A DNA stretch of 64,000 nucleotides from Thermoproteota archaeon (GTDB taxonomy: Archaea; Korarchaeota; Korarchaeia; Korarchaeales; Korarchaeaceae), in NCBI GenBank assembly GCA_027492205.1, contig JAOZFN010000011.1, forward strand, positions 1-64,000, given 5' to 3'. The position numbers and the translations under genes were made by a program. How positions within the stretch are numbered: the first letter of the stretch is position 1; each line of letters begins with the position of its first letter. Of this stretch, positions 26,693 through 60,574 are shown piece after piece. Under the pieces are notes generated by a model. That model worked only from the letters and a program-made list of their open reading frames with translations. It was not told the origin of the DNA and ran no database searches.

Positions 26693-28750
26693 TTGAGGGG
26701 CTGGCTCCTGGATGCCCGGGTGGACGGTGAGTCGCTGAGGCTGACCCTCCTGGACGAGTCCGGCGACCCGTCCATGGCGGAGGTGCCGGCTAGGGAGAGG
26801 CTCTACCTCACGCCGAGGTCCGTCGGCCTCGAGAGGCTCGCGGACTCCCTGTCCGAGCTAGAGGGCGTCCTCTCGGTCGGAGTGGAGCGGTGGCTCATGC
26901 CCCCGAGGTACAGGGAGGAGGCCGACGTCCTAGTCGTGGACTGCGGGCCGAGGGAGGCCCGCCTGATACTGAGGAGGGCTCAAGAGCTGGGCCTGGCGGA
27001 GGCGTGGAACAGGTTCCCATCCCTGATCCAGAGGGCGATCCGGGCCAGGGGGGCGACGGCGTGCTCCTGGGTCGAGGTGAGGGGCGGGGAGGTGAGGCCC
27101 CTGGAGGACCCCGGCTCCGTTCCATACGAGGTCCCTGAGCTCAGGGCCGTGAGGGTGTCCTTCCTGGGGTGGGCCGGCGCGCCGAACGCTCCCTCCTGGG
27201 AGACGGTGGATCGGGTTAGGCTCTCCCCTCTCCGGGGGGAGCCGATCGAGCTATCGGTAGAGAGGGCCAGGTTCGGAGAGCTGGCGGACGCCATAAAGTC
27301 GCTCCTCCCACAAGTGGTCGCGTTCGACTCGCCGGGCTGGGCCGAGCTGGCCCTGAGGGTCCCGGGGGTGGCCAGGGGGCTGGAGGCCGCCGGCGCGGTC
27401 GTCCTGCGCAGGCCCCCTCCCCTGGGGATCGACCTCTGGGGGGCCGTGGAGTGGTCCCGCCTCTCCGCCCTCCCGCTGAGCCGGGTGGTCGACGCCACCA
27501 TCGGCCAGGTGCTCACCAGCGCGGAGGCCTTCGAGGCCCTCCGCAGGGGGTACCTGATACCGGAGGTGAGGAGGTTCGTTGAGTCTTGGAAGAGCCCCTC
27601 CCGGCTGCTGGCCGCCGACAGGGGCGGGCTCGTGCTCACCCCCAGGCCCGGGGTCTACTGGGACGTCTACCAGCTCGACTTCAACTCACTCTACCCCTCC
27701 ATAATCGCCAGGGAGAACGTGAGCCCCGAGACGGTGAACGACCCCTCGTGCCCCGGCCCCCGCAGGGAGGTCCCGGAGGTCGGCCACTTGATATGCCTCG
27801 ACAGGAGGGGGCTCGTCTCAGAGGCCGTCGGGAGGCTCGTGGAGAGGAGGGCCAGGCTGAGGGAGCTGGCCCGGCTCGGGGGTGCGGACGCCGAGAGGTA
27901 CGAGTCCGCCCAGGCTGCGGTCAAGTGGGTGCTCGTGGCGTGCTTCGGCTACCTGGGGTACAGGAACGCCAGGTTCGGGAGCATAGAGGCCTACGAGTGC
28001 GTCACCGCCCTGGCGAGGGACGTCGCCAGGAGGGCCGTCAGGGCCGCCGAGGGGGCTGGCTACAGGGTGCTCCACGTGTTGGTTGACTCCCTGTTCGTCC
28101 AGCCCACCCCCGAGGCCGGCAGCGTCGAAGAGCTCGTTCGCATCGTGGAGCGGGAGACCGGATACGGCCTGAAGGTGGAGGCCGAGTACGAGTGGGTCGC
28201 CTTCTTCTCGGGCGTCACGACGGGCGAGGGGGTGCCCTCCAGGTACCTGGGGAGGCTCACGTCTGGAGGGACTGAGTGGGGCGCGTTCAAGGTGAAGGGG
28301 CTGGAGTTCGCCAGGAGGGACGCGCCGCAGGTGGTCCGGAAGGCGGCGATGGAGGCCCTGTCCGAGCTGGAGCGGGCCGAGTCCCCCGGGGAACTCGAGG
28401 GGGCGTCGATCAGGGCCGTCGAAGTCTTCGGGGCCTGGGCCCGGAGGCTGGCTCGGGGCGAGGTGGACCTCGCCGACCTCGTCGTGGAGAGGAGGCTGTC
28501 CAGAGATCCAAGATGGTATGAGAGGTCCCCGTCCCACGTCGTGGCGGCTCGGGGGCTCAGACCCGGAAAGGGGTCGGCGGGGGCCGTCAGGTACGTGGAG
28601 GCCAAGACCCCCTACCCGGTCGACCTGGGCCCCGGGGGCTACTCGGTGGAGAGGTACCTCGCGTGGCTCGACAGGGCGGCCAGGCCGTTCAGGGCCCTGG
28701 CGAGGCTAACTCGCTCAGAGCGGCCAGGTCGCCGGTTGATTATTAATTGA
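26693..28750 (+). CDS. Family B DNA polymerase, PolB2-like with degenerate motifs
   Basis: A 685-residue polymerase, shorter than replicative PolB (about 780-900). Motif A is intact: YQLDFNSLYPSIIARENVSP near residue 330. Motif B reads AVKWVLVACFGYLGYRNARF. Motif C reads VLHVLVDSLFVQ, so YGDTDS has lost its first Asp and keeps the second. No DIET-type exonuclease motif is visible in the N-terminal half (VSFLGW and VVAFDSPGW stand in similar places), so proofreading is probably absent. This pattern fits archaeal PolB2/Dpo2. In Sulfolobales that enzyme is damage-inducible. The start overlaps the region after the broken MNT gene. Confidence 0.85.
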   Translation: MRGWLLDARVDGESLRLTLLDESGDPSMAEVPARERLYLTPRSVGLERLADSLSELEGVLSVGVERWLMPPRYREEADVLVVDCGPREARLILRRAQELGLAEAWNRFPSLIQRAIRARGATACSWVEVRGGEVRPLEDPGSVPYEVPELRAVRVSFLGWAGAPNAPSWETVDRVRLSPLRGEPIELSVERARFGELADAIKSLLPQVVAFDSPGWAELALRVPGVARGLEAAGAVVLRRPPPLGIDLWGAVEWSRLSALPLSRVVDATIGQVLTSAEAFEALRRGYLIPEVRRFVESWKSPSRLLAADRGGLVLTPRPGVYWDVYQLDFNSLYPSIIARENVSPETVNDPSCPGPRREVPEVGHLICLDRRGLVSEAVGRLVERRARLRELARLGGADAERYESAQAAVKWVLVACFGYLGYRNARFGSIEAYECVTALARDVARRAVRAAEGAGYRVLHVLVDSLFVQPTPEAGSVEELVRIVERETGYGLKVEAEYEWVAFFSGVTTGEGVPSRYLGRLTSGGTEWGAFKVKGLEFARRDAPQVVRKAAMEALSELERAESPGELEGASIRAVEVFGAWARRLARGEVDLADLVVERRLSRDPRWYERSPSHVVAARGLRPGKGSAGAVRYVEAKTPYPVDLGPGGYSVERYLAWLDRAARPFRALARLTRSERPGRRLIIN

Positions 28751-32038: not shown

Positions 32039-32694
32039 CCCCCCTCGAATCGGCGTAGCCGGCGACGCCTCGCGGGATCAAGGCCCCCGGAGGGGGAAAT
32101 ATGATCTTCACCCCCCTTCAGGGACCAGACTTCGTCCGGCAGGTCGTCCACGTCCCACCTGCTCGGCCTTACCTTCGCGTCAACGCGAAGGTCTCCCCGT
32201 CCACCCGGCGACCCCCCGAGGCCCCCCGTCCCCCTCCAGGGGGGGTTCCATGGGCCCTTCCTCAGGGAGACATTGCTCAATTCCCTCGTATCCCCCCTTT
32301 CAAGCCAACTTCGTCGGATCCCGGTTAGAAAAGTTGCATTTGCGTGCAGTCCCGGGGGGCGGGTAGGCTGACGCTTCTGATGAGAAGTCTCTTCCGGCGA
32401 TCATGGAGCCAAGGTCGCTCTGCTCAGCCTAAATTTCACGGCGGACGCCGCCGAGGTTCCTGGAGATCGCTAGAGACTCCGCAATCGGACGATCTCCAGA
32501 GCCGCCTCTCCAGGCCCACGGCCGGAGGGGCCTCCCTGTGGGACATGCTGGGATCGCCGGTCGATTATCTGAGTGGGAGTTCGACGGGCCGACCCCCCGG
32601 CGGCTGAGCCCACGGGGAGGCCCGAGAATGCAGGGATGCCGACGTGCCAACCCCAACTTTATTAGGGAATCTCTGGACGCACCCCCCCAGCTGG
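32039..32694. other. Gene-free GC-rich stretch with one strong hairpin
   Basis: About 650 bases without a credible gene on either strand. It holds a perfect hairpin at 32171-32192, several C/G runs and, at its end, the promoter of the next gene (ACTTTATTAGG, 32655-32665). No tRNA, SRP or RNase P RNA pattern was recognised. Confidence 0.5.
32171..32192. repeat. Perfect 10-bp inverted repeat
   Basis: ACCTTCGCGT-CA-ACGCGAAGGT: two perfect 10-base arms around two bases. No T run follows, so it is not a simple terminator. It may be a DNA-binding site or a hairpin of a small RNA. Confidence 0.6.
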
Positions 32695-34824
32695 GTGAGT
32701 CCTCGGTTGTCTCTTAACAAACCTATCCTGGCCTTTTTCCTGGTTATCGGCCTCCTCCTGTCTCTATTCCTCACGTCGTCCAGTGCCCAACCCAGAGAAC
32801 TCGAGTGGAATCACGTCTGGGGCGGATCCGAACTCGACGTAGCCAGGGCCGTCACTATGGCCCCGGACGGCACGGTCCTCATTGCTGGCGGGACTGAAAG
32901 CTTCGGCCCGCCCGGAGGTGGGGATGGGGACGCCTTCGTCGCCACCTTCAGCTGGGCCACCGGCCACTACACCGGAGGTGGAACCTGGGGGGGTCCGGGC
33001 TACGAGTATGCTTGGGGTGTAGCGACCCCCTGGAACACGTTCAGCAACTTCTACCTGTCGGGCAACACGAACAGCTTCGGCTCCACATATGACGCCTTCC
33101 TCGCGAGATTCGGCTCGGATGGGGCTCACTTCTGGAGCAAGACCTGGGACGGCGGCGACTACGACGGCTCTTGGGACGTCGCCGTCGACCCCAACGGGTA
33201 CATCTACATAGTCGGAGAGACCCACGGCCTCGGGGAGGGATTCGCCGACGCGTTCCTGGCCAAGTTCAGCGAGAGCGGAGCTCATATATGGAGCAGGACC
33301 TGGGGAGGGGTCAGCTACGATTCCGCCAACGCAGTCACCACCGACGCGAGCGGGAACGTCTACGTGGTCGGGTCCACGGGGAGCTTCAACCCGGAGGGGA
33401 AACTCGATGTCTTCGTCCTCAAGTTCAGCTCATCCGGGGGCCTGCTCTGGTCGCTGGTGTGGGGGCTCGAGATGGACGACACCGCCTGGGACGTGGAGTG
33501 GTATGACGGCGTAGTCTACGTGTCCGGGTTCATGAAAAGGCTCCACGGCTATCCCTCGGGGTCCGTCACCGATGACTCCTTTGTGATAGCCCTAGACGAC
33601 TCGAATGGGAACGTCCTCTGGGCCAGGGGGCTGACCGGGGCGGATAGAGGCGTGGGCTCCTCAAGGAGCTTCGCGGTATCTGTCGACGAAGGAGGGGTGG
33701 CCGTCGTGACCCAAGAGTCTAGTGGCCTCAGTCACGTCTACGTGTTCGACAGGCCCTCGGGCCGCCTCCTCTGGGCCAGGAGCATAATACCCGGGCTGGG
33801 GACCAACATATACGCGAGAGCGTACGCCGCCACCTTCAAGTACGGGAAGATCGTGGTCGCGGGCACGGCAAACACGGAATCACAGTATATTTGGCCAGCC
33901 TATCTGTCGCTCTCCTGGCTCAGCGGTGACGTCCAGAGGAGCGTGGGCGCCGTGCACGACGTCACCTCCCAGGTGACGGTCCAGGACGTGACGTCTCAGG
34001 TCACCCTCGGAGATCCCCCCAACCCCGTGGACAGCGGGGGAGAGGAGGCAGGGGGCGCCTTCATCATGTCCATCGACTCCTGGACGGCCGAGGAAGCGCT
34101 GGCCAACGTGGACGCCTGGGCCGACTGGACCGGGACCGATGCCTACAAGCAGGTCGCCGTGGTCGTCGGGGCCCCGGTGAACAGGCCCGACAAGGTCGAG
34201 GGACCCTACAAGCAGTGCAGGACCACGGCGGTGGCTGGCGCCATGTCGATAGCCGGGGCCCTGGGCGCCAGGGATAGCTTCTTGGACGACGAGGCGGTGG
34301 AGTACGACCCTGCGGCCGACGAGGTGAACTGGATCGGGGACTTCGTCGACCACTACGGGAGGGTCGCGGCCGTGGGCGGGCCGATAGTCCACATGATCGT
34401 GGACAAGTACATGGACCAGTCAGTGTTCCCGTTCTCCTCGGTGACTGAGGGCGGGCACGAGCTGTACCAGATTACGGTGAACGAGAACGGCATAGCAAGG
34501 GTGTACCTGAACCGCACAGACAAGTACATGTACATAGAGTACGAGGACGGGAGCCTGGACAAGGTCGGCAAGGTGGGGGAGGCGGACTTCGCGGTCGTGG
34601 AGATGTTCCACGACTCGGACGCGGAAAAGTGGGTTCTCACAGGCTACGGGATAACGAAGTACGGGTCCCTGGCGTCGGGCAGGTGGCTCGGATCGATAGT
34701 CGGGTTTACCTACTTCTACACCTTTGACGCGAAGGCCGTCGTCCTCCTCTGGGAGGACAGCAACGGAGACGGGATGGTCCAGTCCGCGGAGGTCAACGTC
34801 CTGGCCCGGGGCTACGGACCCTGA
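32695..34824 (+). CDS. Secreted beta-propeller protein (SBBP-like repeats)
   Basis: A ~709-residue protein with a signal peptide (LAFFLVIGLLLSLFLTSSSA) and then about six beta-propeller blades. Each has the pattern W-x-x-x-WGG...A-x-x-V-x-x-D-x-x-G-x-x-Y-x-x-G, e.g. HIWSRTWGGVSYDSANAVTT and GNVYVVGST, as in bacterial SBBP repeats. A separate C-terminal domain (TCRT-less, with CRTTAVAGAMSIAGALGARD) ends the protein. GTG 32695 follows TATA box ACTTTATTAG; an upstream GTG (32644) would lie before it. It is the only gene inside the 3.3-kb segment between the 181-bp repeats. Confidence 0.75.
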   Translation: MSPRLSLNKPILAFFLVIGLLLSLFLTSSSAQPRELEWNHVWGGSELDVARAVTMAPDGTVLIAGGTESFGPPGGGDGDAFVATFSWATGHYTGGGTWGGPGYEYAWGVATPWNTFSNFYLSGNTNSFGSTYDAFLARFGSDGAHFWSKTWDGGDYDGSWDVAVDPNGYIYIVGETHGLGEGFADAFLAKFSESGAHIWSRTWGGVSYDSANAVTTDASGNVYVVGSTGSFNPEGKLDVFVLKFSSSGGLLWSLVWGLEMDDTAWDVEWYDGVVYVSGFMKRLHGYPSGSVTDDSFVIALDDSNGNVLWARGLTGADRGVGSSRSFAVSVDEGGVAVVTQESSGLSHVYVFDRPSGRLLWARSIIPGLGTNIYARAYAATFKYGKIVVAGTANTESQYIWPAYLSLSWLSGDVQRSVGAVHDVTSQVTVQDVTSQVTLGDPPNPVDSGGEEAGGAFIMSIDSWTAEEALANVDAWADWTGTDAYKQVAVVVGAPVNRPDKVEGPYKQCRTTAVAGAMSIAGALGARDSFLDDEAVEYDPAADEVNWIGDFVDHYGRVAAVGGPIVHMIVDKYMDQSVFPFSSVTEGGHELYQITVNENGIARVYLNRTDKYMYIEYEDGSLDKVGKVGEADFAVVEMFHDSDAEKWVLTGYGITKYGSLASGRWLGSIVGFTYFYTFDAKAVVLLWEDSNGDGMVQSAEVNVLARGYGP

Positions 34825-40461: not shown

Positions 40462-40777
40462 ACCTCGGGGGCTCGATCCACTCGTTCCCGCACTTCGGAC
40501 ATCTGCTTGGTTTTCTGGGCTTCTTAAGGCTCTTGAAGACGTAGCCGCACTTCCTGCAGTATGGGGGCTCCATGAGGAGCATCAGGGAGCCGCCGTACGT
40601 CCTGTTCAGCGTCTTCGCCACGTGTTCCAAGTGGGCGTAGACAGACCTAACCTCTCCGGGCGGCAGGCCGAGCTCCCGGGCGATCTCCGCAGCAGACATG
40701 GGGTACTCCGCGGAGGAGAGGAGCCTCACGATCCGCTGCCGTATCGTCCCCTCCTCGGGGTCCGTCACTCCGTTCAC
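40442..40777 (-). CDS. HTH and zinc-ribbon transcription regulator (COG3357-like)
   Basis: A ~111-residue protein: winged-helix part (GTIRQRIVRLLSSAEYPMSA then AEIARELGLPPGEV) and a zinc ribbon with four cysteines (CRKCGYVF...CPKCGNEW), the typical archaeal COG3357 layout. The GTG at 40777 overlaps the stop of the preceding gene (GTGA); a second GTG at 40768 is possible. Its 3' end overlaps the convergent ECF gene by about 20 bases. Confidence 0.8.
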   Translation of the reverse strand: MNGVTDPEEGTIRQRIVRLLSSAEYPMSAAEIARELGLPPGEVRSVYAHLEHVAKTLNRTYGGSLMLLMEPPYCRKCGYVFKSLKKPRKPSRCPKCGNEWIEPPRFIIGQP

Positions 40778-41775
40778 CCCCAGGAGAAGCTCACGAGGGA
40801 CATGACTGAGAGAGGCCCTCCGGGCTGGTAGTCGATCACCTCGACGATTCCCGTTATGGGGACGTCGGGGCTCACCCACACGGCTCCGGTCTGTCGGGCG
40901 AACTTCGCGCAGAGGAACCTCCCGGCCGGCACCTCCCTGTACTCGGCGGTGGCCCTCCCCAAGACCCTCGGGATCTCCTGCTCAGAGAGGTTGGGGGGCT
41001 CCCAGAGCCGGCAGGACAGGTTTGAGGAGAAGCTCTCCACCCCCGCGCCGCTGATGGAGGCGTAGGTACACACCGTCCCATTGGAGAGGTAGTAGGCGAC
41101 GCTGGTGGCGTTGGACTGGGGAGCGTACACGTTCACGGCGCTCTGGACTATGACGGTCGCCGGGACGTCTCTCAGGCTGCCGGAGGAGACCCTGTAGAGC
41201 ATGTAGCCGGTGACGTTGTCCCCGTAAGGTGAGATTATCGTGGTCGAGTAGTTCGCGTACTGCCCAGGGGATAGGCCCCTGGCCTCCAGGCTCGTCATGA
41301 CCGCGGTAATGGGTGAACCCGGAAAGCCGGAGACCGCGTACAGCTTGGCGGCGAGGAGGGTCTCGTTCCTGGTCTGACCGGCTATCACCACCGCGGTCCG
41401 GTTGCCCCAGTATCCCAGGTAGACTAGGATGGCCCCGGGCACCTGCCTGAGCCAGTCCTCGTCGCTGTCGTTGAGTACCATGGCAGAGATCTCCCCAATA
41501 CCCTCGTAGGCGTCGGGCCCACCCAGGATCACGGGGAACCGGTCCCCCACCTCACCCGCACTATCGGGGGAGAGCAACTCGACGTCAACGCCGACCCTCT
41601 GGAGGCTCTCCACTATCACCTGGGCCGCCTGGGCGTCGTAGGAGTTGGCGATCACGGCAACTCCCCCGATCGAACCCTCGGCGGCCAGGACCGAGGATAC
41701 GCCGGGGATCGGCGCAGCGAGCACGAGAGTCAGAATCAGCGCGCAGAGAGAGGACGTCTTGAGCCTCTTCACCAC
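40774..41775 (-). CDS. Secreted protein of unknown function with N-glycosylation sites
   Basis: A ~333-residue protein with a signal peptide (LCALILTLVLAAPIPGVSSV LA-type cleavage site) and mature part GGVAVIANSYDAQAAQVIVE, an alpha/beta start that resembles the cell-wall-binding/S-layer outer domain repeats which read VILGGPDAYEGIGEI. Several N-x-S/T sites suggest surface glycosylation. GTG 41775 is used because a TTAAATC TATA box is about 25 bases upstream; earlier starts would fall close to it. The HTH-zinc-ribbon gene is translationally coupled. Confidence 0.65.
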   Translation of the reverse strand: MVKRLKTSSLCALILTLVLAAPIPGVSSVLAAEGSIGGVAVIANSYDAQAAQVIVESLQRVGVDVELLSPDSAGEVGDRFPVILGGPDAYEGIGEISAMVLNDSDEDWLRQVPGAILVYLGYWGNRTAVVIAGQTRNETLLAAKLYAVSGFPGSPITAVMTSLEARGLSPGQYANYSTTIISPYGDNVTGYMLYRVSSGSLRDVPATVIVQSAVNVYAPQSNATSVAYYLSNGTVCTYASISGAGVESFSSNLSCRLWEPPNLSEQEIPRVLGRATAEYREVPAGRFLCAKFARQTGAVWVSPDVPITGIVEVIDYQPGGPLSVMSLVSFSWG

Positions 41776-41835
41776 CGGCGACCCCGACCCCAAGGAGATT
41801 TAAGGTTCCCTCGTCCCCAGCCCGCGGGCGGCCGA

Positions 41836-42603
41836 TCAGCCAGAGACGAGTCGGACGTCTCCAGCGTCCTGCGGGTACCACCTGAGGCGTGCCCCGTACA
41901 GGGGATCGGGCCCGAGGGCCTCCATGACCCCGGTCACCGCCTCTTTGACGGTGTTCCCATCGGCGAGGAGCCTGACCAGCATGACCACGGCCCTGTCCGT
42001 GTGAGTTGCAGTGACGTCCTCATCCCACCCTATGACCACGGACGCGCCCCTCCTCACCAAGGCCTCCGCGGTCACGTTGGTCACGAGCCCCTTGCATCCG
42101 GCGATGATTATCACGGCCCCGTGAAAGTTCCCCTCCATCTCCGATGAGATGAACTCAGGCGGTATCGCGAAGTACCTGTCCTCTGACTTGAGGAGCACCA
42201 GGGCGCCGACCTTCTTGGAGAGCTGCAGGTCCACGTACCTTTGGGGGGCGAAGGGCTCGCCGGTCCCCAGCGCCACGTGAACGGGCCTACCGTCTTTGTA
42301 GAAGGCCGCCGTGTGGACTCGGAGTATTAGCAGCCGGTAACTAAGCATGGGGAGCGTGCGATACAGCTCTACGGAGACATTCCAGTGCGTGAAGACGTCC
42401 AGGGTCATGTTTACCCTGCTCAGCGCCTCTCTCAGGTCCTCAGCCAGGCGAGGGTTTGGAAACTCTATGGCCAGCGAATCAAGGAGCGCGGCATCTCCCG
42501 CGACCCGGGTGGGGGGCTGCCTGGGCGACCTCAGCAATATTGCCGGAGTCGCAAGGGCCACCACGACCACGGCCAACATGAGCGGCAGTCGTCTGAGGCT
42601 CAT
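41836..42603 (-). CDS. Secreted protein with a caspase-like (CHAT/C25-type) fold, tentative
   Basis: A ~255-residue protein with a signal/anchor (LPLMLAVVVVALATPAILL). Its C-terminal half reads EGNFHGAVIIIAGCKGLVTN, then AEALVRRGASVVIGWDEDVT and LLADGNTVKEAVTGVMEALG. This order (His, then a strand ending in Cys, then G-A-x-x-V-I-G) is that of CHAT and other caspase-like peptidases, with candidate dyad His in NFHGA and Cys in AGCKG. The His-Cys spacing is shorter than usual, so catalytic activity is uncertain. ATG 42603 fits a TATA-like CTTTTTTGAA about 29 bases upstream. Confidence 0.5.
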   Translation of the reverse strand: MSLRRLPLMLAVVVVALATPAILLRSPRQPPTRVAGDAALLDSLAIEFPNPRLAEDLREALSRVNMTLDVFTHWNVSVELYRTLPMLSYRLLILRVHTAAFYKDGRPVHVALGTGEPFAPQRYVDLQLSKKVGALVLLKSEDRYFAIPPEFISSEMEGNFHGAVIIIAGCKGLVTNVTAEALVRRGASVVIGWDEDVTATHTDRAVVMLVRLLADGNTVKEAVTGVMEALGPDPLYGARLRWYPQDAGDVRLVSG

Positions 42604-42654
42604 CGGGGGGCGGCCCAACCAGCGGCATTCAAAAAAGGTGGGGGAGGGGCCCGG

Positions 42655-45600
42655 TCAGCGCCTCCTCCTGTGGTAGACCACCAGGGCCGCCGAGGCCGCC
42701 GAGACGAATGCGGCTACCGCGGCCGCGGCGGCGAGGCTGGAGGGCTGATAGATCCCGCCCACTGCGGAGACGTCCAGGGTCCCAATGGACCCGGAGCCGA
42801 ATATGACCAGGCTGAACGAGGGGTCCTCGCTCGGGGTGTTGATGGCGTATATCCTTATCTGGTACCGACCAACCTCGGGGGAGTCTATTATCACCCTCTC
42901 GACGTTGTTCACCCTGTCGACCTCGTCGTCGTAGGGTGGAACGAGGTCGTTTCCGTGGTATATCGTGCCGTCAGGGGCGACGACGTAGAGGTCGAAGTCG
43001 TTGACCAGCGCGGGGACGCCGGGGACCCACTGGGGCGCGTCGCTCCAGGCCAGGGTCACCTCCAGCGGGGTGCTGGGATCAGTCACCTCGAACGATAGGT
43101 AGGCCACGTACCCGGTAGAGATACTGACGCACTCGTCGCAGAGGTAAAGGAGCCCGGGGTGGGTCAGGATGTCGTAGAAGTCAAGCTGGCCGAACCCCAT
43201 GTCGTAGAGGTCGGGGTTGCCGTTTCCGTCAGAGTCGGCGGTCGGGTCGAGGCCCATCCAGTCGGCGAAGTTCACTATGAGGGCCTTGACCGCAGACGGG
43301 GAGATCGTGCCGGCGAAGCTGAACAGGTCCTGCCAGAGGGCAGCGGCCCCCGCCACCTGCGGGGTGGCCATGCTGGTGCCGGCGGCCCACGCGTGCAGAG
43401 CCTGCACGGGGTCGGGGGTCAGCCGGCCGTACATGAACATGCCGGTGATCGGCCCGACCACATAGTAGCCTGGGGCCACGACATCCGGCTTTATCCTGCC
43501 GTCCGCGGTCGGACCCCTGCTGCTGAAGTCGGCGAACTGGTAGGGGGCGAAGAACGGCGGGTTGGTCGTGGCGCCGACTTGGATCACGTTCTTTGCTATC
43601 CCGGGACCGTCGAGGCTAACGGTGGGATCCGGCCCGGCGTTGCCGGCGGCGAAGACGCAGGTTATCGGCGGCTCCGGGGTGCCGTCCCCGTCCCAGTCCT
43701 CGCCTCCCTTGACGAAGAGGTCCCAGTACGCCTCATAGAGGCTGTACTCTCCCTCGGACGGATAGCCCCAGGAGTTGGAGGTGATTATGGAGCCAGTCGC
43801 CCTGTGGGCGATGGCGTAGGCCGCCCACTCGTCTATGTAGTTGTAGTTCACGTCCCAGGCGTACGGGTAGCCCGTGTCCCCGAAGAACCTGACCATCGCC
43901 AGGTCGGCCCCGGGCGCCACTCCGGGTATGGGGGGCCAGTAGTACATGGCGCCGGCCCCGCCGTACTTGCCCCACATGCTGGTCCCGAGCCCCAGGGCCG
44001 ACTCGGAGACGTGGGTGCCGTGGAACCAGAAGTCCTCGGCTGAGCCGTCTCCGGTGTACTCCCACCACTCGGTGGCGTCTATCAGCGCCCTTACCTTCCC
44101 CACGAAGTCGGGCCAGATCTCAGTGTCCTCGTCCACCAGCCCGTCCCCGTCGTTGTCTATCCCCGCCGGGTCCTCGTCCACCAGCCCGTCCCCGTCGTTG
44201 TCTATGCCGTCGACCGGATCCTCGTCAAACGAACCGTCGTTGTCATCGTCACCCGTGAAGAACGGGAGCCCCGTTCCGAAGTAGTCGTGCCACGGGATCG
44301 GATCCTCGTCCACCAGCCCGTCCCCGTCGTCGTCCTCCCCGGGGGCCGGGTCCTCGTCGAAGTACCCATCACCGTCGTTGTCGCACCCCGGGACGTCCTC
44401 GTCCACCAGCCCGTCCCCGTCGTCGTCTATCCCGTTGGGGAGCTCCTCGTCGTATAGCCCGTCCCCGTCGTCGTCGTCCATGTACCAGAACCCGTCTCCG
44501 TCCAGGTCAAGGAGGCCGCACGCCGCGTCGTCGGACATGCCGTCCTCGTCCACCAGCGTGTCCCCGTCGTTGTCCCCGTAGTTCGGCGGATCCTCGTTGA
44601 GCCTCCCGTCCATGTCGTCGTCATACGGGTCCTCGTTGATCAGCCCGTCCCCGTCGTTGTCTATGCCGGCTGGGTCCTCGTTGATCAGCCCGTCCCCGTC
44701 GTTGTCGGCGCACGGAGGGGCGGTCTCCACGGGGTCCTCGTCAATGAGCCCATCCCAGTCGTTGTCTATGCCGGCTGGGTCCTCGTCCACGTAGCCGTCC
44801 CCGTCGTTGTCGGCGCCGTCGATCGGGTCCTCGTCGACCAGCCCGTCCCCGTCCTCGTCCAGCCCGGCGACGGGGTCCTCGTCCACGTAGCCGTCCCAGT
44901 CGTCGTCAAGCCCGTTCACCGGGTCCTCGTCAACCAGCCCGTCCCCGTCGTCGTCGGGATCGTCCTCGTTTATGAGGTAGTCCCCGTCGTTGTTGATCCA
45001 GCAGCCCGGCTCCACCGGGTCCTCGTCAACCAGCCCGTCCCCGTCGTCGTCCACACCGGCTGTGTCACCGGTGTCGAGGCCCGTGTCCCCCACCGCTACG
45101 GTTACGCCTGCCCCGGTGATCCCCCACAGTAGATTGATCCAGTAGGAGCCCGTGACCTGCCCGGCCCAGTAGTTCTCGGGCTGAGCGTTGGCCGGCGGGG
45201 CCGCCTCGCCCTGTATCTGGACCGGGGCGACCGGAGCCTTCGGCTCCACGAGGTCCATCGACAGGACGTAGGCGCTGGAGGCGAGGTCGCCCGCCCTGTC
45301 CGCAGGGAGGACCACGAATGCGCCGTTCATTGGCAGCTCCCTGACCACCCTGCCGCCGAGGGACTCCACGGCCCTCCTGAGATCCTCCGGGGAGTCTGCG
45401 GCGAACCCCTTGACCAGCATCATCACCGGCCCCGTGGAGGCGGATAACCGCTGGGCGGTCCTCTGGGTCATCTTGTACTCGGGCCTGAACGGGCCGATCC
45501 GCCTCACGTGCTCCACGCTCAGGAGTTCGCTGACGAGGTCGCTGGGGACGGTTATGAGGAGGGCGTTGTCGGGTATGTAGGTCTCTACCACCGCGCCCAT

Positions 45601-45918
45601 TGACTCCAGCTGCTGAGTCCACTCCGGCATGATGGGCCCGTCGAACTGCACTATCACCCTGGCCCTGTCCCCTGGGTACAGCGCCCTTATCCCTTCGATG
45701 TCAGGCTCTCCCGGGGAGAGGGTGCCGCTCGGCAGCTTGAGGACTGCCTCGGGCTGGGGTCCCGCCCAACCGCCAAACTGGATTTCAAAGTCCTTTGGAT
45801 GAATTAGCTGGACCTGTGGACTTCCTGTGAACTTTGGGGCCGCTGCAACAGGTATTCTGAGGACTGTTAGGAAGACGACGAGTATCCCGAACAGCAGGGT
45901 TCTGTGGATCCTCTTCAA
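42655..45918 (-). CDS. Subtilisin-like serine protease with calcium-type repeats, membrane anchored
   Basis: A 1087-residue S8 protease. Order: signal peptide; propeptide (RARVIVQFDGPIMPEWTQQL, VVLPADRAGDLASS); catalytic Asp in TVAVGDTGLDTGDT; then 19 Asp-rich repeats of the D-x-D-G-D-G-x-x-D-E-D-P kind (about 45050-44130); catalytic His in WFHGTHVSESALG; oxyanion Asn in FAAGNAGPD; catalytic Ser in AAGTSMATPQVAGAAALW; a P-domain-like beta sandwich; and a C-terminal membrane helix with an RRRR end. The repeats resemble thrombospondin type 3 calcium sites. It should work on the outer cell face. Confidence 0.9.
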   Translation of the reverse strand: MKRIHRTLLFGILVVFLTVLRIPVAAAPKFTGSPQVQLIHPKDFEIQFGGWAGPQPEAVLKLPSGTLSPGEPDIEGIRALYPGDRARVIVQFDGPIMPEWTQQLESMGAVVETYIPDNALLITVPSDLVSELLSVEHVRRIGPFRPEYKMTQRTAQRLSASTGPVMMLVKGFAADSPEDLRRAVESLGGRVVRELPMNGAFVVLPADRAGDLASSAYVLSMDLVEPKAPVAPVQIQGEAAPPANAQPENYWAGQVTGSYWINLLWGITGAGVTVAVGDTGLDTGDTAGVDDDGDGLVDEDPVEPGCWINNDGDYLINEDDPDDDGDGLVDEDPVNGLDDDWDGYVDEDPVAGLDEDGDGLVDEDPIDGADNDGDGYVDEDPAGIDNDWDGLIDEDPVETAPPCADNDGDGLINEDPAGIDNDGDGLINEDPYDDDMDGRLNEDPPNYGDNDGDTLVDEDGMSDDAACGLLDLDGDGFWYMDDDDGDGLYDEELPNGIDDDGDGLVDEDVPGCDNDGDGYFDEDPAPGEDDDGDGLVDEDPIPWHDYFGTGLPFFTGDDDNDGSFDEDPVDGIDNDGDGLVDEDPAGIDNDGDGLVDEDTEIWPDFVGKVRALIDATEWWEYTGDGSAEDFWFHGTHVSESALGLGTSMWGKYGGAGAMYYWPPIPGVAPGADLAMVRFFGDTGYPYAWDVNYNYIDEWAAYAIAHRATGSIITSNSWGYPSEGEYSLYEAYWDLFVKGGEDWDGDGTPEPPITCVFAAGNAGPDPTVSLDGPGIAKNVIQVGATTNPPFFAPYQFADFSSRGPTADGRIKPDVVAPGYYVVGPITGMFMYGRLTPDPVQALHAWAAGTSMATPQVAGAAALWQDLFSFAGTISPSAVKALIVNFADWMGLDPTADSDGNGNPDLYDMGFGQLDFYDILTHPGLLYLCDECVSISTGYVAYLSFEVTDPSTPLEVTLAWSDAPQWVPGVPALVNDFDLYVVAPDGTIYHGNDLVPPYDDEVDRVNNVERVIIDSPEVGRYQIRIYAINTPSEDPSFSLVIFGSGSIGTLDVSAVGGIYQPSSLAAAAAVAAFVSAASAALVVYHRRRR

Positions 45919-46149: not shown

Positions 46150-47778
46150 TCACCTCCTCCTCGAGATCATGGCCCCAAGGGCGGTCCCCAGGGCCGCCGA
46201 GGCGGCGGCGACGGCCAGGGTGAGGGTGTAGGACGGGCCGCCGACCTCCTGCCTCGCCGATCGTGGAGGGGGCTGGGAGGAAGCTTCCTCGGGTGGGTGT
46301 GACAGCGCGGCGTTTGCGGCTGCTATCAGCCGGGAGGCTGACCTGAGCAGGTTAACCTTCTCGGCGGGGGAGTTCGCCTCCTCGTATGCGCGCAGGAGGG
46401 CCCAGATGGCCTCAGACAGCGCCGTGGCGCTTGGGTCTCCCAGAGATCCCAATCTATTGGCCTCGTTCACGATCCACTGGGCAGAGCGGGACATGGCCAG
46501 CTCTGCGAGTTCGTTGGCTCCTTTAACGACCGACTCAAGCAGTTCCTGGGCGCCGGTGCAGTTTCCCGACCGGGCCGCTTGGTCCGCCCGCCCGAGCAGA
46601 CTCTCCAGCCTCGAGAGGTCGTCGAGTCCCTCGCCCGCCCCGGTCAGGTTTGACGCGAGTTCTACCGATGACTTCGCCAAGGTCAGGGCCTCCCACCCCC
46701 TAGAAAGGTCGATGGCTGCGCATGCGTTCGCGCCGCCAGACTCCGCGGCAGCGGAGGCGGCAGTCAGCGTTCTAACCTCCCTCACCTCCAGACCTCGCCT
46801 CCCGGTTACGAGGACCTCCAGCTGCAGGGCCCCGGCGACGTCCTCAGGGACGCGTATTCTCAGGGAGAACTGCCTGCCCAGGCCTGGGGGGATGTCCCCC
46901 AAGTAGGCGGATCCCGCCGCCCTGCCGCCCAGCATTACCCTGACGGTGACGCCCCTCGCGGGAACCCCTCCCGCGTTCCGCACCGTCCCGTTGACCCAGA
47001 CCTCTTGACCGGGCGAGGCCTCCTGGGGGGCGACGACGTACAGATCTAGCATAGCCCTGCTCACGACGCTCACGTCCACCTCAGCTTTTGCGGATCCCTG
47101 AGAGGTGACCAGGACTAGGATAAGGTGGCGGGTCCCCTCGCCGAGCGGAGAGGAGTCGAACCTGACCCCGAGGGTCCTCTCGGAGCCAGCTGGTATGGTG
47201 ATCGCCAGTTCCACGGTGTCCAGGAGCGTCCAATCTTCCAGGTAGATTAGGACCTGCACGTTTTCAGCTGGCCGATCACCCTCATTCAGTACCCTAAGCC
47301 TGACCTCTACAGGCTCACCGAGCGCCGTCTCCCCTACGGTGGCCTCCAGAATCTTGACGTGCGAGACCCGCCCCCCTCCAGCCCACCCCCCTCCACCTCC
47401 ACCTCCGGACTGACTCCTAAGGGTCAGATTCACCTGAACCTTTCCAGTGCCCTCACCTACTTTGATGTACCTCACGGCCGACAGGTCGCCTTTCCTCGCC
47501 GTGACCCTGACGGTCTGCGATCCCTCTATCGAGAGAGTTATCTGGTAATATCCCTGGGGGTTTGTAGTGGCTGATCCGGAATCGCTGTCACACGTGGCCA
47601 AAACGCTCGCGCCGGCAGCTGGAGACCCGTCGGGCATGTGGACGTAGCCGTATATCACGACCGGAACCCCCTGCGCCCTGGCCGGGCTGACGCCCGCAGA
47701 CGAGGCCATCAGAGCTAGGCAGAGTAGGAGCGAGGCCTGAAAGAGTTTCAGAGATCTCTCTCGCCTCACCAGGTTCAT
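46150..47778 (-). CDS. Secreted CARDB-like protein with C-terminal anchor
   Basis: A 542-residue protein starting at the ATG that overlaps the stop of the C25 peptidase gene. It has a signal peptide (LLLCLALMASSAGVSPARAQ), a carboxypeptidase-regulatory-like domain (VVIYGYVHMPDGSPAAGASV), a Gly-rich linker, two CARDB-like domains (GEPVEVRLRVLNEGDRPAEN and PGQEVWVNGTVRNAGGVPAR), a helical region and a C-terminal membrane helix with an RRR end. A longer upstream frame is not coding. It probably holds or presents partners at the surface. Confidence 0.75.
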   Translation of the reverse strand: MNLVRRERSLKLFQASLLLCLALMASSAGVSPARAQGVPVVIYGYVHMPDGSPAAGASVLATCDSDSGSATTNPQGYYQITLSIEGSQTVRVTARKGDLSAVRYIKVGEGTGKVQVNLTLRSQSGGGGGGGWAGGGRVSHVKILEATVGETALGEPVEVRLRVLNEGDRPAENVQVLIYLEDWTLLDTVELAITIPAGSERTLGVRFDSSPLGEGTRHLILVLVTSQGSAKAEVDVSVVSRAMLDLYVVAPQEASPGQEVWVNGTVRNAGGVPARGVTVRVMLGGRAAGSAYLGDIPPGLGRQFSLRIRVPEDVAGALQLEVLVTGRRGLEVREVRTLTAASAAAESGGANACAAIDLSRGWEALTLAKSSVELASNLTGAGEGLDDLSRLESLLGRADQAARSGNCTGAQELLESVVKGANELAELAMSRSAQWIVNEANRLGSLGDPSATALSEAIWALLRAYEEANSPAEKVNLLRSASRLIAAANAALSHPPEEASSQPPPRSARQEVGGPSYTLTLAVAAASAALGTALGAMISRRR

Positions 47779-50700
47779 CAAGACCACCCCTCCTTGTCGA
47801 CGGGCTCCTGGCCCTCTACCCACGCCAACGTGGCCGGGGAGTCGAGGAACACGAAGTACCCGTAGCCCCTTAGGACGGGGAAGTCGTACTCGCCGGGACT
47901 CGTGCCCGGCAGGTACGAGTAGTACCTCTTGGCGGCCGGGTCCCACCTGCTGATGACGCTGCAGGCATCGCCTATTGCCATTCCCAGGTCCCTCGCAGTG
48001 AGGCCGCCCCTGGTCGGCTCGGCGACCGAAACTATGGTCCACCCCTCCTGCAGGTGGGTCACGTGCACCCTCAGTGACAGTCGGAGGTTCTTCGAGGCTC
48101 CCTTCACCAGAATCGTGAGTAGGTGCTCTCCCTCCTCGAGCGAGGAGGCGTCCACCTCGATGAACAGGTCCTCCCTCGCCTCGTCCGCGGATCCGTCGAC
48201 CACTTGGAGGGGGGTGACCGGATCTCCGTCTATGCCGTATCGGGCGCCCGAGATTCCGAGGGGGTGAACCGCCGTGAGATTGACTCTTATGGTCCCGTTC
48301 AGCACGTGAGGGTGGTCTGAGAGGACCACAGGCGCGTTTGAATCTCCTCCGAGGGTCCATAGCAGGGAGTTCCTGATCAGGATCTCCCTGTGAGTTGCGT
48401 TCAGGTAGTGGAGCGGGAAGGCGAAGTACACCACCCTCGACCCGTTTCCCCCTATACCGTCGTAGGCCACCGCCGCTGAATAAGCGGTCCCAGAGTACCT
48501 CAGGAACTCGAGTCCGCCCGGCAGGGGTGAGACTCCGTCGGGGAAGGGAGGCGCGACGTTGAAGTCGGAGGAGGATGGAAGATCGAGCGTGAGGGGGTGG
48601 TCGACGGACACCTCCAGGCTGGCTGGCCCCGCGTCATCTACCTGGTATGAGGCGTGCAAGACTTCCCTCATGAGCCCGTCCGAACCGTGGTCGTACGCTA
48701 CGTCTTCCCCCTCAACGACGAGCGAGCCCCCCCTCTTCACGTACTCGATGAGCAGGTTGGCATCGGTCTTGGAGACCGCCTCCCCGTAGTAGGTGCCCGC
48801 GTGCCAGAAGACCGCGACGGCTTCAAGAAGGGTGTCGAGCGTAGGCTCCCCGTACTCGCTCTCCCGGTAGACTACCGCGTTGAATCCCAGAGAGGCTGCG
48901 ACCTGACTTATCTCGTCCGGCCAGACCCCTCCGTCGTACATGCCAGCGCCGTCATCGTCCACAACTATCAGCACCGTGTTCGGCGGGAGCGCCGCCGCGA
49001 AGACCGAGACATCGACCCTGAACTGGTCCCTCACCAGGTAAGTGTCTCTGGATCCGCCCAGGGTGCTGTCCGTCGGGGACACCCTCAGGGAGGCCGCCAT
49101 GGGCGGCGTGGAGGTCAGTGGAATCTCGAAGTACCCGTCCGGGTCGGTGACGGTCTGCGCGACGAGGGAGTTCGCGTCGTACTCGTAGAGCGACACGGTC
49201 GCCCCCGCGACGGGGAGCCCGTTGGAGTCCATCACGCGGCCGAAGAGTTTGGGGCCTGGGGTCGGAGGCGGCGGGGAGCCGGTTGGAGTCAGCTCGATGG
49301 TCGGGTCTCCCAGCAGGGTGCCGTACTCCGCCACGGTCTTCCAGTTGTACTCGTCGGCGACGCCGAAGGTAAGGACGTAACCCCCTATGGCGGACGCGTG
49401 CGCGGCCCCCACCCAGGGTTTGGCCGATCCCACCGCCGAGATCAGTTCCTGGATGAGGAGTCTGTCCATCTTCCCGGCCAGTCCATCGTCTATCGAGAAA
49501 CCCTCGTACCCCCACGCCACCCTCGTGGCCCCGAAGTACCCCACGGCCCCGCCGGGGTTCGTCAGGAACGCCTCCCCAATGGAGTCGACATCCACGAACC
49601 TGGCGGTCATGCAGGCCATCGCCACGACTATGGCCGGCGACTCAGAGTTGTTGAGCGTGGCCGCCAGGGTGGAGGAATAGACGGTCCTGTAGCCGTACAG
49701 CGGTCCGGAGTACCACCCGCTCGGGTTGCCGTGGCCGGCGAAGTTCACGAACCCGTACCCCCTGTTGATCTCGGCCTGAACGGCCGAGGGGGAGAGGTTA
49801 CCCAGGTGGTCGTAGAGCTTGACCCAGCGGAACTGCTCGGGGAGGTCCTCGTACTCGATCACGTCGTTCAGGTACTCCCCCTCGGGGTGCAGGTCGTCGT
49901 CGAACGTCACGGTCCCGATCATGAGGAACCTGTAGAACCAGGAGGCGCCGGGTGAGTAGTTCGCAACCTTCGACACCATCGCCTGGGCTTCCGCGAGGCT
50001 ACTGGCCGGCAGCCTCCCGACAATCACGTCCGGAACCCCGTCTACCTCTCCAACCTCTCCGTACCTCCCATTTCCGTTGGGATCCCACGTCCCGTCAAGG
50101 TCCGCGTAGTATAGGTCCGTCTCCACGAAGGAACCGTCCTCGGACTCGTCGTTGTCGGCGTACCCGTCGGGTATGTAGGCGAGCCTCGCCGGGACCTGAT
50201 CCGCGTCCCCCAAGATGAGGAAGAAGGCGTATCCTTCGGCCTTCTTGTCGGCGATGAACGACCTGATCTCCTCCTGCAGGTCGCTTCCCGTGTAGTTGGC
50301 GTCGATTTCGTCCGTCGTGACGACGAGGACGCCCCAGCCCTGATCCCGCTTGGAGGCGGCCAGGTCGTTCGCCGCGGCCAGGAGGGTCGAGCTCGTAATT
50401 ATCACCAGCCTCCTGTCGTAGGTCTGAGCGGGCACCCTCTGGACCCTGTATGTGACGGTGACCATCATCTCCCTGGCGAACCTCACCTCGCCGAGGGCGG
50501 GCGAGTACCTCACCGGGAAGAGCCTCACTGCCAAGATGGCAGCGTCCCTCATCGTCTCGACGTCCAGCCCGAAGTGAAGCGAGTAGGTGAAGTTCTCCTC
50601 AGGAAGGAACTCCCTCGAGGAGTAGACGGTCGGGTCGGGCTCCGCCCTGTAATTCAGCCTCGTGTCGTTGAGCCAGGGCGGGCCCAGGGGCCTGGGTTTT

Positions 50701-51041
50701 GGACCGGGGGCTATCCTATAATTCCCCTCCAGTACCTCGTACTCCGCCGACACGTTGACTGACTCCAACTCCACACCCGGCGGCAGGGTAAGCGTCACCG
50801 TGACGAAGGGTAGGATGGGATACCCGGGCTTGACCAGCAGGTCGGCCCCGGGTATCGTGATCATATCGTACTTGCCTTCGACTGCCTTGAAGTGAACCTC
50901 TGGCGGGCTTAGAGTTACGAGGACGGACTTAGTCTCGAGCGCCGGCGCGTCTGCTGCCAATGCGGGCGCAGCCGCCGTGACCAAGATCAGCGTCAGGACA
51001 AGGGATGCCGACGGGGCGGGACCTCTAGGGGCCGCTGTCAT
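47778..51041 (-). CDS. Gingipain-like C25 cysteine peptidase, secreted
   Basis: A 1087-residue secreted protein. It has a signal peptide, a propeptide-like beta region, and the C25 domain: RRLVIITSSTLLAAANDLAA, YAFFLILGDADQVPARLAYI, the catalytic His in FVNFAGHGNPSGW and Cys in VVAMACMTARFVD. After it come a carboxypeptidase-regulatory-like domain (LFGRVMDSNGLPVAGATVSL), a ThuA/DUF4350-like domain (VVVEGEDVAYDHG) and a beta C-terminal domain. TATA CTTTTTATTC lies 25-30 bases before the ATG (leaderless). It is the first gene of an operon with the CARDB-like protein. Confidence 0.85.
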   Translation of the reverse strand: MTAAPRGPAPSASLVLTLILVTAAAPALAADAPALETKSVLVTLSPPEVHFKAVEGKYDMITIPGADLLVKPGYPILPFVTVTLTLPPGVELESVNVSAEYEVLEGNYRIAPGPKPRPLGPPWLNDTRLNYRAEPDPTVYSSREFLPEENFTYSLHFGLDVETMRDAAILAVRLFPVRYSPALGEVRFAREMMVTVTYRVQRVPAQTYDRRLVIITSSTLLAAANDLAASKRDQGWGVLVVTTDEIDANYTGSDLQEEIRSFIADKKAEGYAFFLILGDADQVPARLAYIPDGYADNDESEDGSFVETDLYYADLDGTWDPNGNGRYGEVGEVDGVPDVIVGRLPASSLAEAQAMVSKVANYSPGASWFYRFLMIGTVTFDDDLHPEGEYLNDVIEYEDLPEQFRWVKLYDHLGNLSPSAVQAEINRGYGFVNFAGHGNPSGWYSGPLYGYRTVYSSTLAATLNNSESPAIVVAMACMTARFVDVDSIGEAFLTNPGGAVGYFGATRVAWGYEGFSIDDGLAGKMDRLLIQELISAVGSAKPWVGAAHASAIGGYVLTFGVADEYNWKTVAEYGTLLGDPTIELTPTGSPPPPTPGPKLFGRVMDSNGLPVAGATVSLYEYDANSLVAQTVTDPDGYFEIPLTSTPPMAASLRVSPTDSTLGGSRDTYLVRDQFRVDVSVFAAALPPNTVLIVVDDDGAGMYDGGVWPDEISQVAASLGFNAVVYRESEYGEPTLDTLLEAVAVFWHAGTYYGEAVSKTDANLLIEYVKRGGSLVVEGEDVAYDHGSDGLMREVLHASYQVDDAGPASLEVSVDHPLTLDLPSSSDFNVAPPFPDGVSPLPGGLEFLRYSGTAYSAAVAYDGIGGNGSRVVYFAFPLHYLNATHREILIRNSLLWTLGGDSNAPVVLSDHPHVLNGTIRVNLTAVHPLGISGARYGIDGDPVTPLQVVDGSADEAREDLFIEVDASSLEEGEHLLTILVKGASKNLRLSLRVHVTHLQEGWTIVSVAEPTRGGLTARDLGMAIGDACSVISRWDPAAKRYYSYLPGTSPGEYDFPVLRGYGYFVFLDSPATLAWVEGQEPVDKEGWS

Positions 51042-59413: not shown

Positions 59414-60574
59414 ATGATCGGTGAAAGTTATGTCAAACTTACGCGAAAGTGGGGGTGCGCATTGGTCAAGGCCGTCAGGCGCCGCGCCGACCAGCTTGGC
59501 CCGCTGGAGCCCTACCTGGGGGAGGCTCCCCTAGAGTACAAGCTGGTACCGTACGAGAGCCTGAGGACTGAACTCGCCACCCAGGCTGTTGAGTACGCCG
59601 CCGAAACCGCGAAGCTCGCCTTAAAGGTTCGGAGGCTCAGGGCCGCCCTGGAGTCCGCCGTCGGGATCCTCCGGGTTGACCCGGTCGACCCCTCTTCCTC
59701 CCTCTTCGGTGCCGCGGACGCCGGCGCCAACGGCCGAGATCTGCTGGTTGGAGTCTACCCCGTGATCACGGCCGTGGGGGCGACCTTCAGAGGCGCCTCC
59801 ATGCTCTTCGGCCCCAAGTCCGCGACGACCAAACTCCCAAGGCTCTACGGGGATGAGGAGGAGGCGAGAAAGCTCTCCACCCTCGTGGGGTACTATCTCC
59901 AGTTCGAGCTGGCCAGGCACATGCTCGAGGAGGCCAGGGACGGGGTCCTGCTCGACGGCCCGTTGATCCTCAGGAGGAGCGTCTACAGTCCGAGGGGTAG
60001 GCACTACGGGGAAACCTACGTCCGGGCCTACTGGTCGGCGTGGAGGTCGCTCGCGCTCCTGCTCGAGGAGGCCAGGGACAGGGGGGTCCCGGTCGTCGGC
60101 GTCGTGAAGCGGGTCCGGTCGACGCAGGTTGCCAGGAGGGTGGGGCTGGACTCGACTGGCGACTCTGCCCTGGCGGCCCTCTGCCTGTCTCCGGGGGAGT
60201 ACACCTCCCCCACGCCGATGGAGTCCGCCTGGGTCGACCTGGTCGGACACCTCAGGGAGGCGGACGTGAGCCCCCGCGGCCTGAGGCCCCACTCCCTGAT
60301 CGTTAGAGCGGGGCAGGGCGGGCAGTCCTACAGGGTGGATGTGCCGGAGTTCGCCCTCGACAGGGTACACGAGATCGTCAGCAGGCTCTACTCACTCCGG
60401 GTCCCGCCCTCAGGTCTACCCGTGCCGATAGTGGCGGTGGACCGCCTTACCCGGGTGACGAACCGCGAGGCCGCCCTGCTCCACCGCCGGATGTTCTCGA
60501 CCCTGGCCTCCAAGCTGGGGGCCGACAGGGTCGACATACTCACCCTGCTGACCCTGCAGCACGGTGAGTCGTGA
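59414..60574 (+). CDS. nurA: NurA 5'-3' nuclease
   Basis: A 386-residue NurA. The RNase-H-like nuclease core is seen: first Asp in LFGAADAGANGRDLL, GVYPVITAVGATFRG, the second Asp in GVLLDGPLILR, VVGVVKRVRSTQVAR and a late Asp in VPIVAVDRLTRVTNREA. With HerA it forms the end-resection machine that makes 3' overhangs for RadA. Its stop overlaps the herA start (GTGA). TATA-like ACTTTAAGTA lies about 20 bases before the ATG; a TTG at 59462 could be an alternative start. Confidence 0.85.
   Translation: MIGESYVKLTRKWGCALVKAVRRRADQLGPLEPYLGEAPLEYKLVPYESLRTELATQAVEYAAETAKLALKVRRLRAALESAVGILRVDPVDPSSSLFGAADAGANGRDLLVGVYPVITAVGATFRGASMLFGPKSATTKLPRLYGDEEEARKLSTLVGYYLQFELARHMLEEARDGVLLDGPLILRRSVYSPRGRHYGETYVRAYWSAWRSLALLLEEARDRGVPVVGVVKRVRSTQVARRVGLDSTGDSALAALCLSPGEYTSPTPMESAWVDLVGHLREADVSPRGLRPHSLIVRAGQGGQSYRVDVPEFALDRVHEIVSRLYSLRVPPSGLPVPIVAVDRLTRVTNREAALLHRRMFSTLASKLGADRVDILTLLTLQHGES

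Follow-up and report, generated by a model that had tools for sequence, protein, structure and literature searches.

A subtilase of a korarchaeal archaeon with a 19-unit calcium-type array between its catalytic Asp and His

What can an acidic array of some 300 residues be for when it lies between two members of a protease's catalytic triad? This question is raised by a minus-strand open reading frame at positions 42655–45918 of the window, i.e., the 64-kb stretch of DNA analysed here, which is the opening part of a 193-kb contig (C17) in an assembly of 1.94 Mb and 17 contigs. The original prediction, made from the letters of the DNA, described a subtilase in which 19 calcium-type repeats split the catalytic Asp from the catalytic His. 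The gene, its relatives and the solved structures of other subtilases were examined to find out how the array is built, how it is conserved and which role it may play.

The protease and the insertion in its catalytic domain

The frame runs from a TTG start through the stop codon and encodes 1087 residues. Peptidase_S8 (PF00082) matches residues 271–896 with an E value of 2.2e-33 and 116.2 bits (Pfam cut-off of 21.8), and no other frame of the genome assembly matches S8. The catalytic triad consists of Asp278, His636 and Ser849, together with Asn760, and these residues lie in the motifs of the S8 family, GDTGLD at 277, HGTH at 633, AGN at 758 and GTSMATP at 847.

All features of the protein are encoded on the minus strand. 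The boundary of a putative signal peptide (residues 1–27; 45838–45918) was set by eye from a basic start and a hydrophobic stretch. The region that precedes the catalytic strand (residues 28–255; 45154–45837) may be a propeptide, apparently of two I9-like units, and no Pfam family model matched it at an E value of 0.001. The strand that carries Asp278 (residues 256–289; 45052–45153) was aligned with the DTGLDTG of KP-43 and SubHal, and the remaining catalytic domain with His636, Asn760 and Ser849 (residues 599–905; 43204–44124) was delimited by alignments, by PF00082 and by the motifs. A C-terminal beta domain (residues 906–1045; 42784–43203) is matched in the alignments by the C-terminal portion of KP-43 (PDB 1wmd) and SubHal (5fax), and a PPC-like score of 25.3 bits for this domain is slightly below the Pfam cut-off of 25.9. 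Near its end, the translation shows a hydrophobic helix followed by a basic tail (residues 1061–1085; 42664–42738), judged by eye to be a probable membrane anchor; the helix is also present in a low-confidence AlphaFold model. The product reads as a secreted and membrane-anchored subtilase, which would degrade protein at the cell surface of an archaeon that is presumably thermophilic.

The predicted insertion is indeed there. Asp278 and His636 are 358 residues apart, and between them lies an array of 309 residues (290–598; 44125–45051), which agrees with the insert of about 300 residues that had been proposed. It is made up of 19 acidic units with the consensus GIDNDGDGLVDEDP, spelled out for the array as G-I-D-N-D-G-D-G-L-V-D-E-D-P, which start at residues 290, 309, 322, 338, 354, 370, 385, 405, 420, 433, 449, 471, 482, 498, 513, 529, 557, 573 and 588. 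The full 11-residue unit pattern fits 18 of the 19 units, the unit at 471 being a degenerate DLDGDG. Both in this protein and in a related one from another genus (G017, see below), Asp occupies unit positions 3 and 5 in all 19 units and Glu occupies position 10 in 18 of them. As many as 125 of the 309 residues are acidic (40%), and there is one Arg and no Lys. Of the 19 copies of the linear motif Dx[DN]xDG in the protein, 18 belong to the array. When the whole protein was shuffled (5000 times), the number of motifs averaged 0.47 and never exceeded 5, against the 19 observed; when the array was shuffled by itself (5000 times), the number averaged 2.0 and never exceeded 7, against the 18 observed. 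The pattern suggests that the array may bind calcium.

The array does not resemble the classical calcium-binding repeats in every respect. Classical EF-hand and thrombospondin type 3 loops have an acidic ligand at position 12, which is missing from the array unit. For either of the two arrays, Pfam returned no family up to an E value of 10, thrombospondin type 3 and EF-hand included, a result in which the low-complexity correction may mask a relation. The only family model to score above its cut-off is the acidic double-disulfide repeat (NF033662), with 46.3 and 43.4 bits against a cut-off of 41 when the two arrays were scanned alone; the whole protein gave no match to it at an E value of 0.001, and a genome-wide search with the model was empty, as was its control. 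The name of this family implies two disulfides per repeat, whereas the array has only four Cys in its 19 units, at 306, 403, 467 and 512. Cys467 and Cys512 are matched by residues 463 and 515 of the protein from the other genus, and Cys306 and Cys403 are found in the window and in its genus mate (G001) and are both missing from G017. This pattern would fit two disulfides.

The array is a clean insertion in one loop between Asp278 and His636. The search against solved structures was run with the whole protein and then with the array left out. The whole protein found KP-43 and SubHal as top relatives, with the Asp and His regions apart. Once the array was omitted, SubHal aligned unbroken across the junction, with 177.7 bits as against 159.5 with the array, and the pairing there is DTGLDTGDTAG-TEIWPDFVGKV of the window protein with DTGLDTGRND-SSMHEAFRGKI of SubHal. 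KP-43 spans the junction as well, in two pieces, and in its alignment the Asp and the His are 38 residues apart. The array precedes an HPDL-like element, which here reads WPDF (residues 602–605). A relative from Methanohalobium is also a subtilase without the insert. As both KP-43 and the Methanohalobium protein are free of it, the enzyme family does not need the array.

Conservation and distribution of the array

The full protein was found in three of the 29 genomes of the phylum, namely that of the window, the genus mate G001 and G017, which belongs to another genus of the same family. The assemblies of both orthologs are separate from that of the window, and both carry the insert. In G017, the gene is complete on a single contig and contains 19 units in the same order as in the window. 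The repeat number, which was to be compared between relatives, is therefore 19 in both genera, and neither of the two orthologs found lacks the insert. The irregular units are also common to the window and G017: units 10 and 13 are close to their neighbours, unit 12 is the odd DLDGD unit, and a Cys stands before unit 15. In G001, the gene is split over two contigs inside unit 16, one with 15 whole units and the second with units 16 to 19; these contigs are likely to abut, because the flanking genes keep the order seen in the window. The family-B polymerase was tried as a yardstick for vertical or horizontal descent and was dropped, since that gene is itself patchy.

Units of the window and G017 were compared in and out of register. 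The mean amino acid identity was 0.776 in register and 0.559 out of register, and none of 20000 permutations reached this result. For 14 of the 19 units, the own counterpart was the best or tied-best match in amino acid sequence, and for nine of them uniquely so. Along the protein, identity to G017 was 0.31 in the propeptide, 0.59 in the Asp strand, 0.79 in the array, 0.62 in the rest of the catalytic domain, 0.52 in the C-terminal domain and 0.26 in the tail, and the difference between the array and the catalytic core was significant (Fisher p = 6e-6). Low complexity inflates the identity of the array, but the out-of-register pairs reach only 0.56. The array also had the lowest pN of the protein against G017, 0.134 as compared with 0.274 for the catalytic core, and at synonymous sites every large region was at or close to saturation. 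No other region is as conserved in this comparison, and the array is under purifying selection; between genera, it is constrained more strongly than the core of the enzyme. Against G001, conservation of the array was not clearly above that of the catalytic core, with identities of 0.89 and 0.92 for the two parts of the array, 0.885 for the core, 0.76 for the propeptide and 0.66 for the C-terminal domain.

It had also been proposed that the DNA repeats are near-identical and prone to copy-number change, and neither statement is borne out. The 48-nt units have a mean pairwise identity of 0.66 at the DNA level, with a maximum of 0.875, and the longest exact repeat in the array is 39 nt. Among the units of the window, 0.789 of the synonymous codons were identical, whereas codon usage elsewhere in the gene predicted 0.683, and this slight excess would fit weak gene conversion or a codon preference. 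The presence of all 19 units in unchanged order on one contig of G017, together with the lowest pN of the protein, speaks against instability, and a change of copy number or an assembly artefact was rejected. Of the collapse or expansion of the assembly that had been held out as a refutation, what remains is a real difficulty inside unit 16 of G001; G017 is continuous. It is hardly credible, then, that the array is a functionless low-complexity expansion that drifts, or a product of assembly. Tandem repeats and the interruption of the G001 assembly, of the kind that repeats cause, are what such an explanation would lead one to expect, but it does not account for the 19 units, the order and the odd units shared by the window and G017, for a G017 contig that reads through the array, or for a low pN where synonymous sites are saturated.

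Outside the phylum, the array was sought with strict cut-offs and with queries that differed between searches. No match was found in any of 769 genomes of four other archaeal phyla: 115 genomes (833-residue query at 1e-20, a query without positive control), 227 genomes (384-residue query at 1e-10), 29 genomes (1e-10) and 398 genomes (1e-5). The 384-residue query had as its positive control the three of 29 genomes in its own phylum. Bacteria were reached mainly via plasmids, and 85 plasmid records had a subtilase match, none of which covered 80% of the query with the low-complexity filter on. A scan of genome contigs matched only the two contigs of G001. Among 18 weaker subtilase loci (L007–L024), the seven for which the catalytic-His motif was printed have no Dx[DN]x[DN]G array, the motif being absent from L007, L008, L010, L012, L013 and L019 and present once in L024. 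A viral contig (L042) matches the unit pattern once.

Possible function of the array

For calcium, the original prediction had offered two roles, to stabilise the enzyme or to switch it. Stabilisation is the likelier by the precedent of malaria SUB1 and Tk-subtilisin, and the switch is less likely. Calcium binding, the fold of the array and the dependence of activity on it are here predicted from sequence. The most economical interpretation is an element of folding and stability that would be saturated outside the cell, because so large a number of neighbouring acidic residues would hardly fold in the absence of cations, because the array joins the Asp strand to the His helix, and because the precedents need calcium to fold. 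In each unit GIDNDGDGLVDEDP, the Asp residues at positions 1, 3 and 5 and the acidic or amide groups at positions 9–11 would serve as ligands. A metal-free array, with 125 acidic residues and a single Arg in 309, would be unfolded by charge repulsion, so that Asp278 and His636 would not be brought together. Upon export into calcium-rich fluid, the array would load many calcium ions and become a rigid, protease-resistant body; the loop would then be locked, and the triad could form. On the whole, it is moderately likely that the array is a greatly expanded element of calcium-dependent folding and thermostability, constitutive in situ. Structure prediction gave a mean pLDDT of 32 for the whole protein (three sequences, including the two G001 halves, the C-terminal one trimmed in the alignment to start near the last unit) and of 47 for a four-unit piece (10 rows, the others being pieces of the same arrays), and both models were discarded as evidence.

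A more specific form of this idea is that the array acts as an export checkpoint. In the low calcium of the cytoplasm, the polyanionic array would keep the halves of the triad separate, and outside the cell some 19 or more calcium ions would load cooperatively, whereupon the active site would assemble. This remains a tentative and somewhat doubtful proposal. If it were true, the split active site would be clamped by metal, and this would be, to our knowledge, the largest calcium insertion inside the catalytic domain of a protease.

The position of the array between triad residues would also suit a reversible switch, in which calcium is loaded and released within the calcium range of the organism and the activity of the protease is toggled. 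The record of G001 is titled Aegir_M25_B147, which we take to be the name of a marine vent. Sea and vent fluids contain millimolar calcium, which would saturate the sites permanently, and the switch is the less likely because marine calcium is so high. SUB1 does lend the switch some credit, as its activity is stated to be optimal at about 40–500 µM calcium (PMC4024747). However, the loops of SUB1 and of Tk-subtilisin are described as high-affinity and required for folding (PMC4024747; PMC3123361), and a switch is considered distinctly improbable. A folding and stability element is thus more likely to be constitutive than to be a switch.

Another explanation places the function of the array outside catalysis. 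A stiff, acidic, calcium-loaded arm could fasten the enzyme to the S-layer, mineral or basic substrates while hardly influencing the reaction itself. The composition of the array (40% acidic and without Lys, with a single Arg in 309 residues) and the apparent membrane anchor are compatible with docking, and similar acidic repeats are otherwise common in surface proteins. For a docking arm, however, a terminal position would be expected, and the array is found inside the catalytic domain, where its units keep their register and are more conserved than the core in comparison with G017. This explanation is unlikely, although less so than the switch. If the folding and stability element is real, the protein would allow a natural test of the number of metal sites that one loop of a catalytic domain can carry, and it would inform how an active site in two halves comes together only after export and how a protease survives heat. 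The enzyme could also prove to be a protease of very high heat stability under the control of calcium.

Comparison with known calcium insertions in subtilases

The best solved relatives of the window protein are the oxidatively stable proteases KP-43 and SubHal, with which both the catalytic and the C-terminal beta domains were aligned; unlike the window protein, they have no insert. Pyrolysin of Pyrococcus furiosus reportedly gains stability and activity from four inserts in its catalytic domain. One of them, presumably of 147 residues, lies between the Asp and the His, and we know of no repeat array in that enzyme. In the parts of the open-access literature available, no subtilase with thrombospondin or calcium repeats inside its catalytic domain was found.

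Calcium-type motifs had been said in the original prediction to lie usually outside catalytic domains. This is not always the case, as they are found inside the catalytic domains of SUB1, deseasin MCP-01 and Tk-subtilisin. The insertion loop of malaria SUB1 (Leu388–Tyr411) holds two calcium ions between the catalytic Asp372 and His428 (PMC4024747). Loop 1 of the Plasmodium enzyme resembles the array in being an insertion between Asp and His and in its motif GxDDDxNGxVDD, which has the same spacing, but it is one loop of 24 residues with two calcium ions, whereas the window protein has 19 units. Tk-subtilisin of Thermococcus kodakarensis is an enzyme of an archaeal thermophile, as the window protein probably is too, and has a multi-calcium insertion that, like the array, contains Dx[DN]xDG. 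Its insertion, of 25 residues and four calcium ions, lies within the catalytic domain (PMC3123361) and is said to be in a loop other than that of SUB1 (PMC4024747). The Tk-subtilisin report presents it as the first clear case in which calcium bound by Dx[DN]xDG takes part in protein folding (PMC3123361), and the SUB1 report regards both this insertion and the SUB1 loop as indispensable to folding (PMC4024747).

A search of solved chains with a consensus motif as the query matched SUB1 (4lvn, 4tr2 and others) and deseasin MCP-01 (3vv3), and in both the motif stands immediately ahead of the catalytic-His motif. In deseasin MCP-01, this segment, GIDNDGNGYIDD, is almost the consensus of the array and is present in a single copy. 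The array could have arisen in place, through multiplication of the one calcium motif found between Asp and His in other subtilases, rather than by capture of a foreign repeat domain. Deseasin MCP-01 (GIDNDGNGYIDDVHG) and SUB1 (GVDDDSNGVVDDVYG) do have a motif similar to the unit GIDNDGDGLVDED ahead of the His. Yet acidic repeats that are unrelated (NF033662) have a comparable consensus, and the site of insertion differs with respect to the HPDL-like element, the array standing before this element and the SUB1 loop, as judged by eye, after it. Such an origin is held as possible but doubtful and, as the insertion points differ, neither a shared insertion point nor a common origin with the SUB1 loop is claimed.

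The finding adds no new type of system. Subtilases with calcium motifs in the catalytic domain are already known, and it is the unusual size that differs here. Small calcium loops that subtilases need for folding are familiar, and in the window protein the same idea would appear multiplied to 19 units.

Genes around the subtilase

The subtilase gene (42655-45918, minus strand) shares its strand with the gene of a C25 (gingipain/PorU-like) peptidase, which was recognized by a family-model match at 47778-51041 (minus strand) and lies two genes upstream. The order of these two genes is also kept in a genus mate, G001, and a search of G017, a genome from another genus of the family, returned no match to the C25 peptidase. 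On a contig of a further genome (G008:C1), a frame of 773 aa matches the C-terminal ~170 residues of the C25 peptidase, and the subtilase hit on this contig sits in a frame of 773 aa as well. This suggests secreted peptidases that share a C-terminal domain.

Between the two peptidase genes lies an ORF with CarboxypepD_reg and CARDB domains by Pfam match (46150-48360, minus strand). The true start of this gene is probably internal to the ORF, since its counterpart in G001 is 553 aa long. Downstream of the subtilase, two minus-strand ORFs (41836-42618 and 40774-41793) follow in the same order as in G001; a Pfam search assigned no family to either.

The repeat unit in other contigs

The contig break in the G001 ortholog (end of L003, start of L002) falls within unit 16 of the calcium-type repeat array, where ~20 nt, judged by eye, are common to both contig ends. 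The unit pattern, back-translated, also occurs once without mismatch on one viral contig (L042, 1410-1448).

Other genes in the window

By family matches, a 900-aa ORF (60571-63273, plus strand) contains an intein splicing domain (Pfam) and resembles HerA at its C terminus, and a 726-aa ORF (32644-34824, plus strand) has SBBP/delta-60 repeat matches that score below the curated cut-offs. A family-B DNA polymerase-like protein was found by sequence matches at 26693-28750 (plus strand). Its identity to G001 is 97%, compared with about 80% for the subtilase, and falls to 48% in G016 and to only about 30-36% in the remaining matches. Judged by these identities, it looks like a separate and perhaps mobile polymerase.
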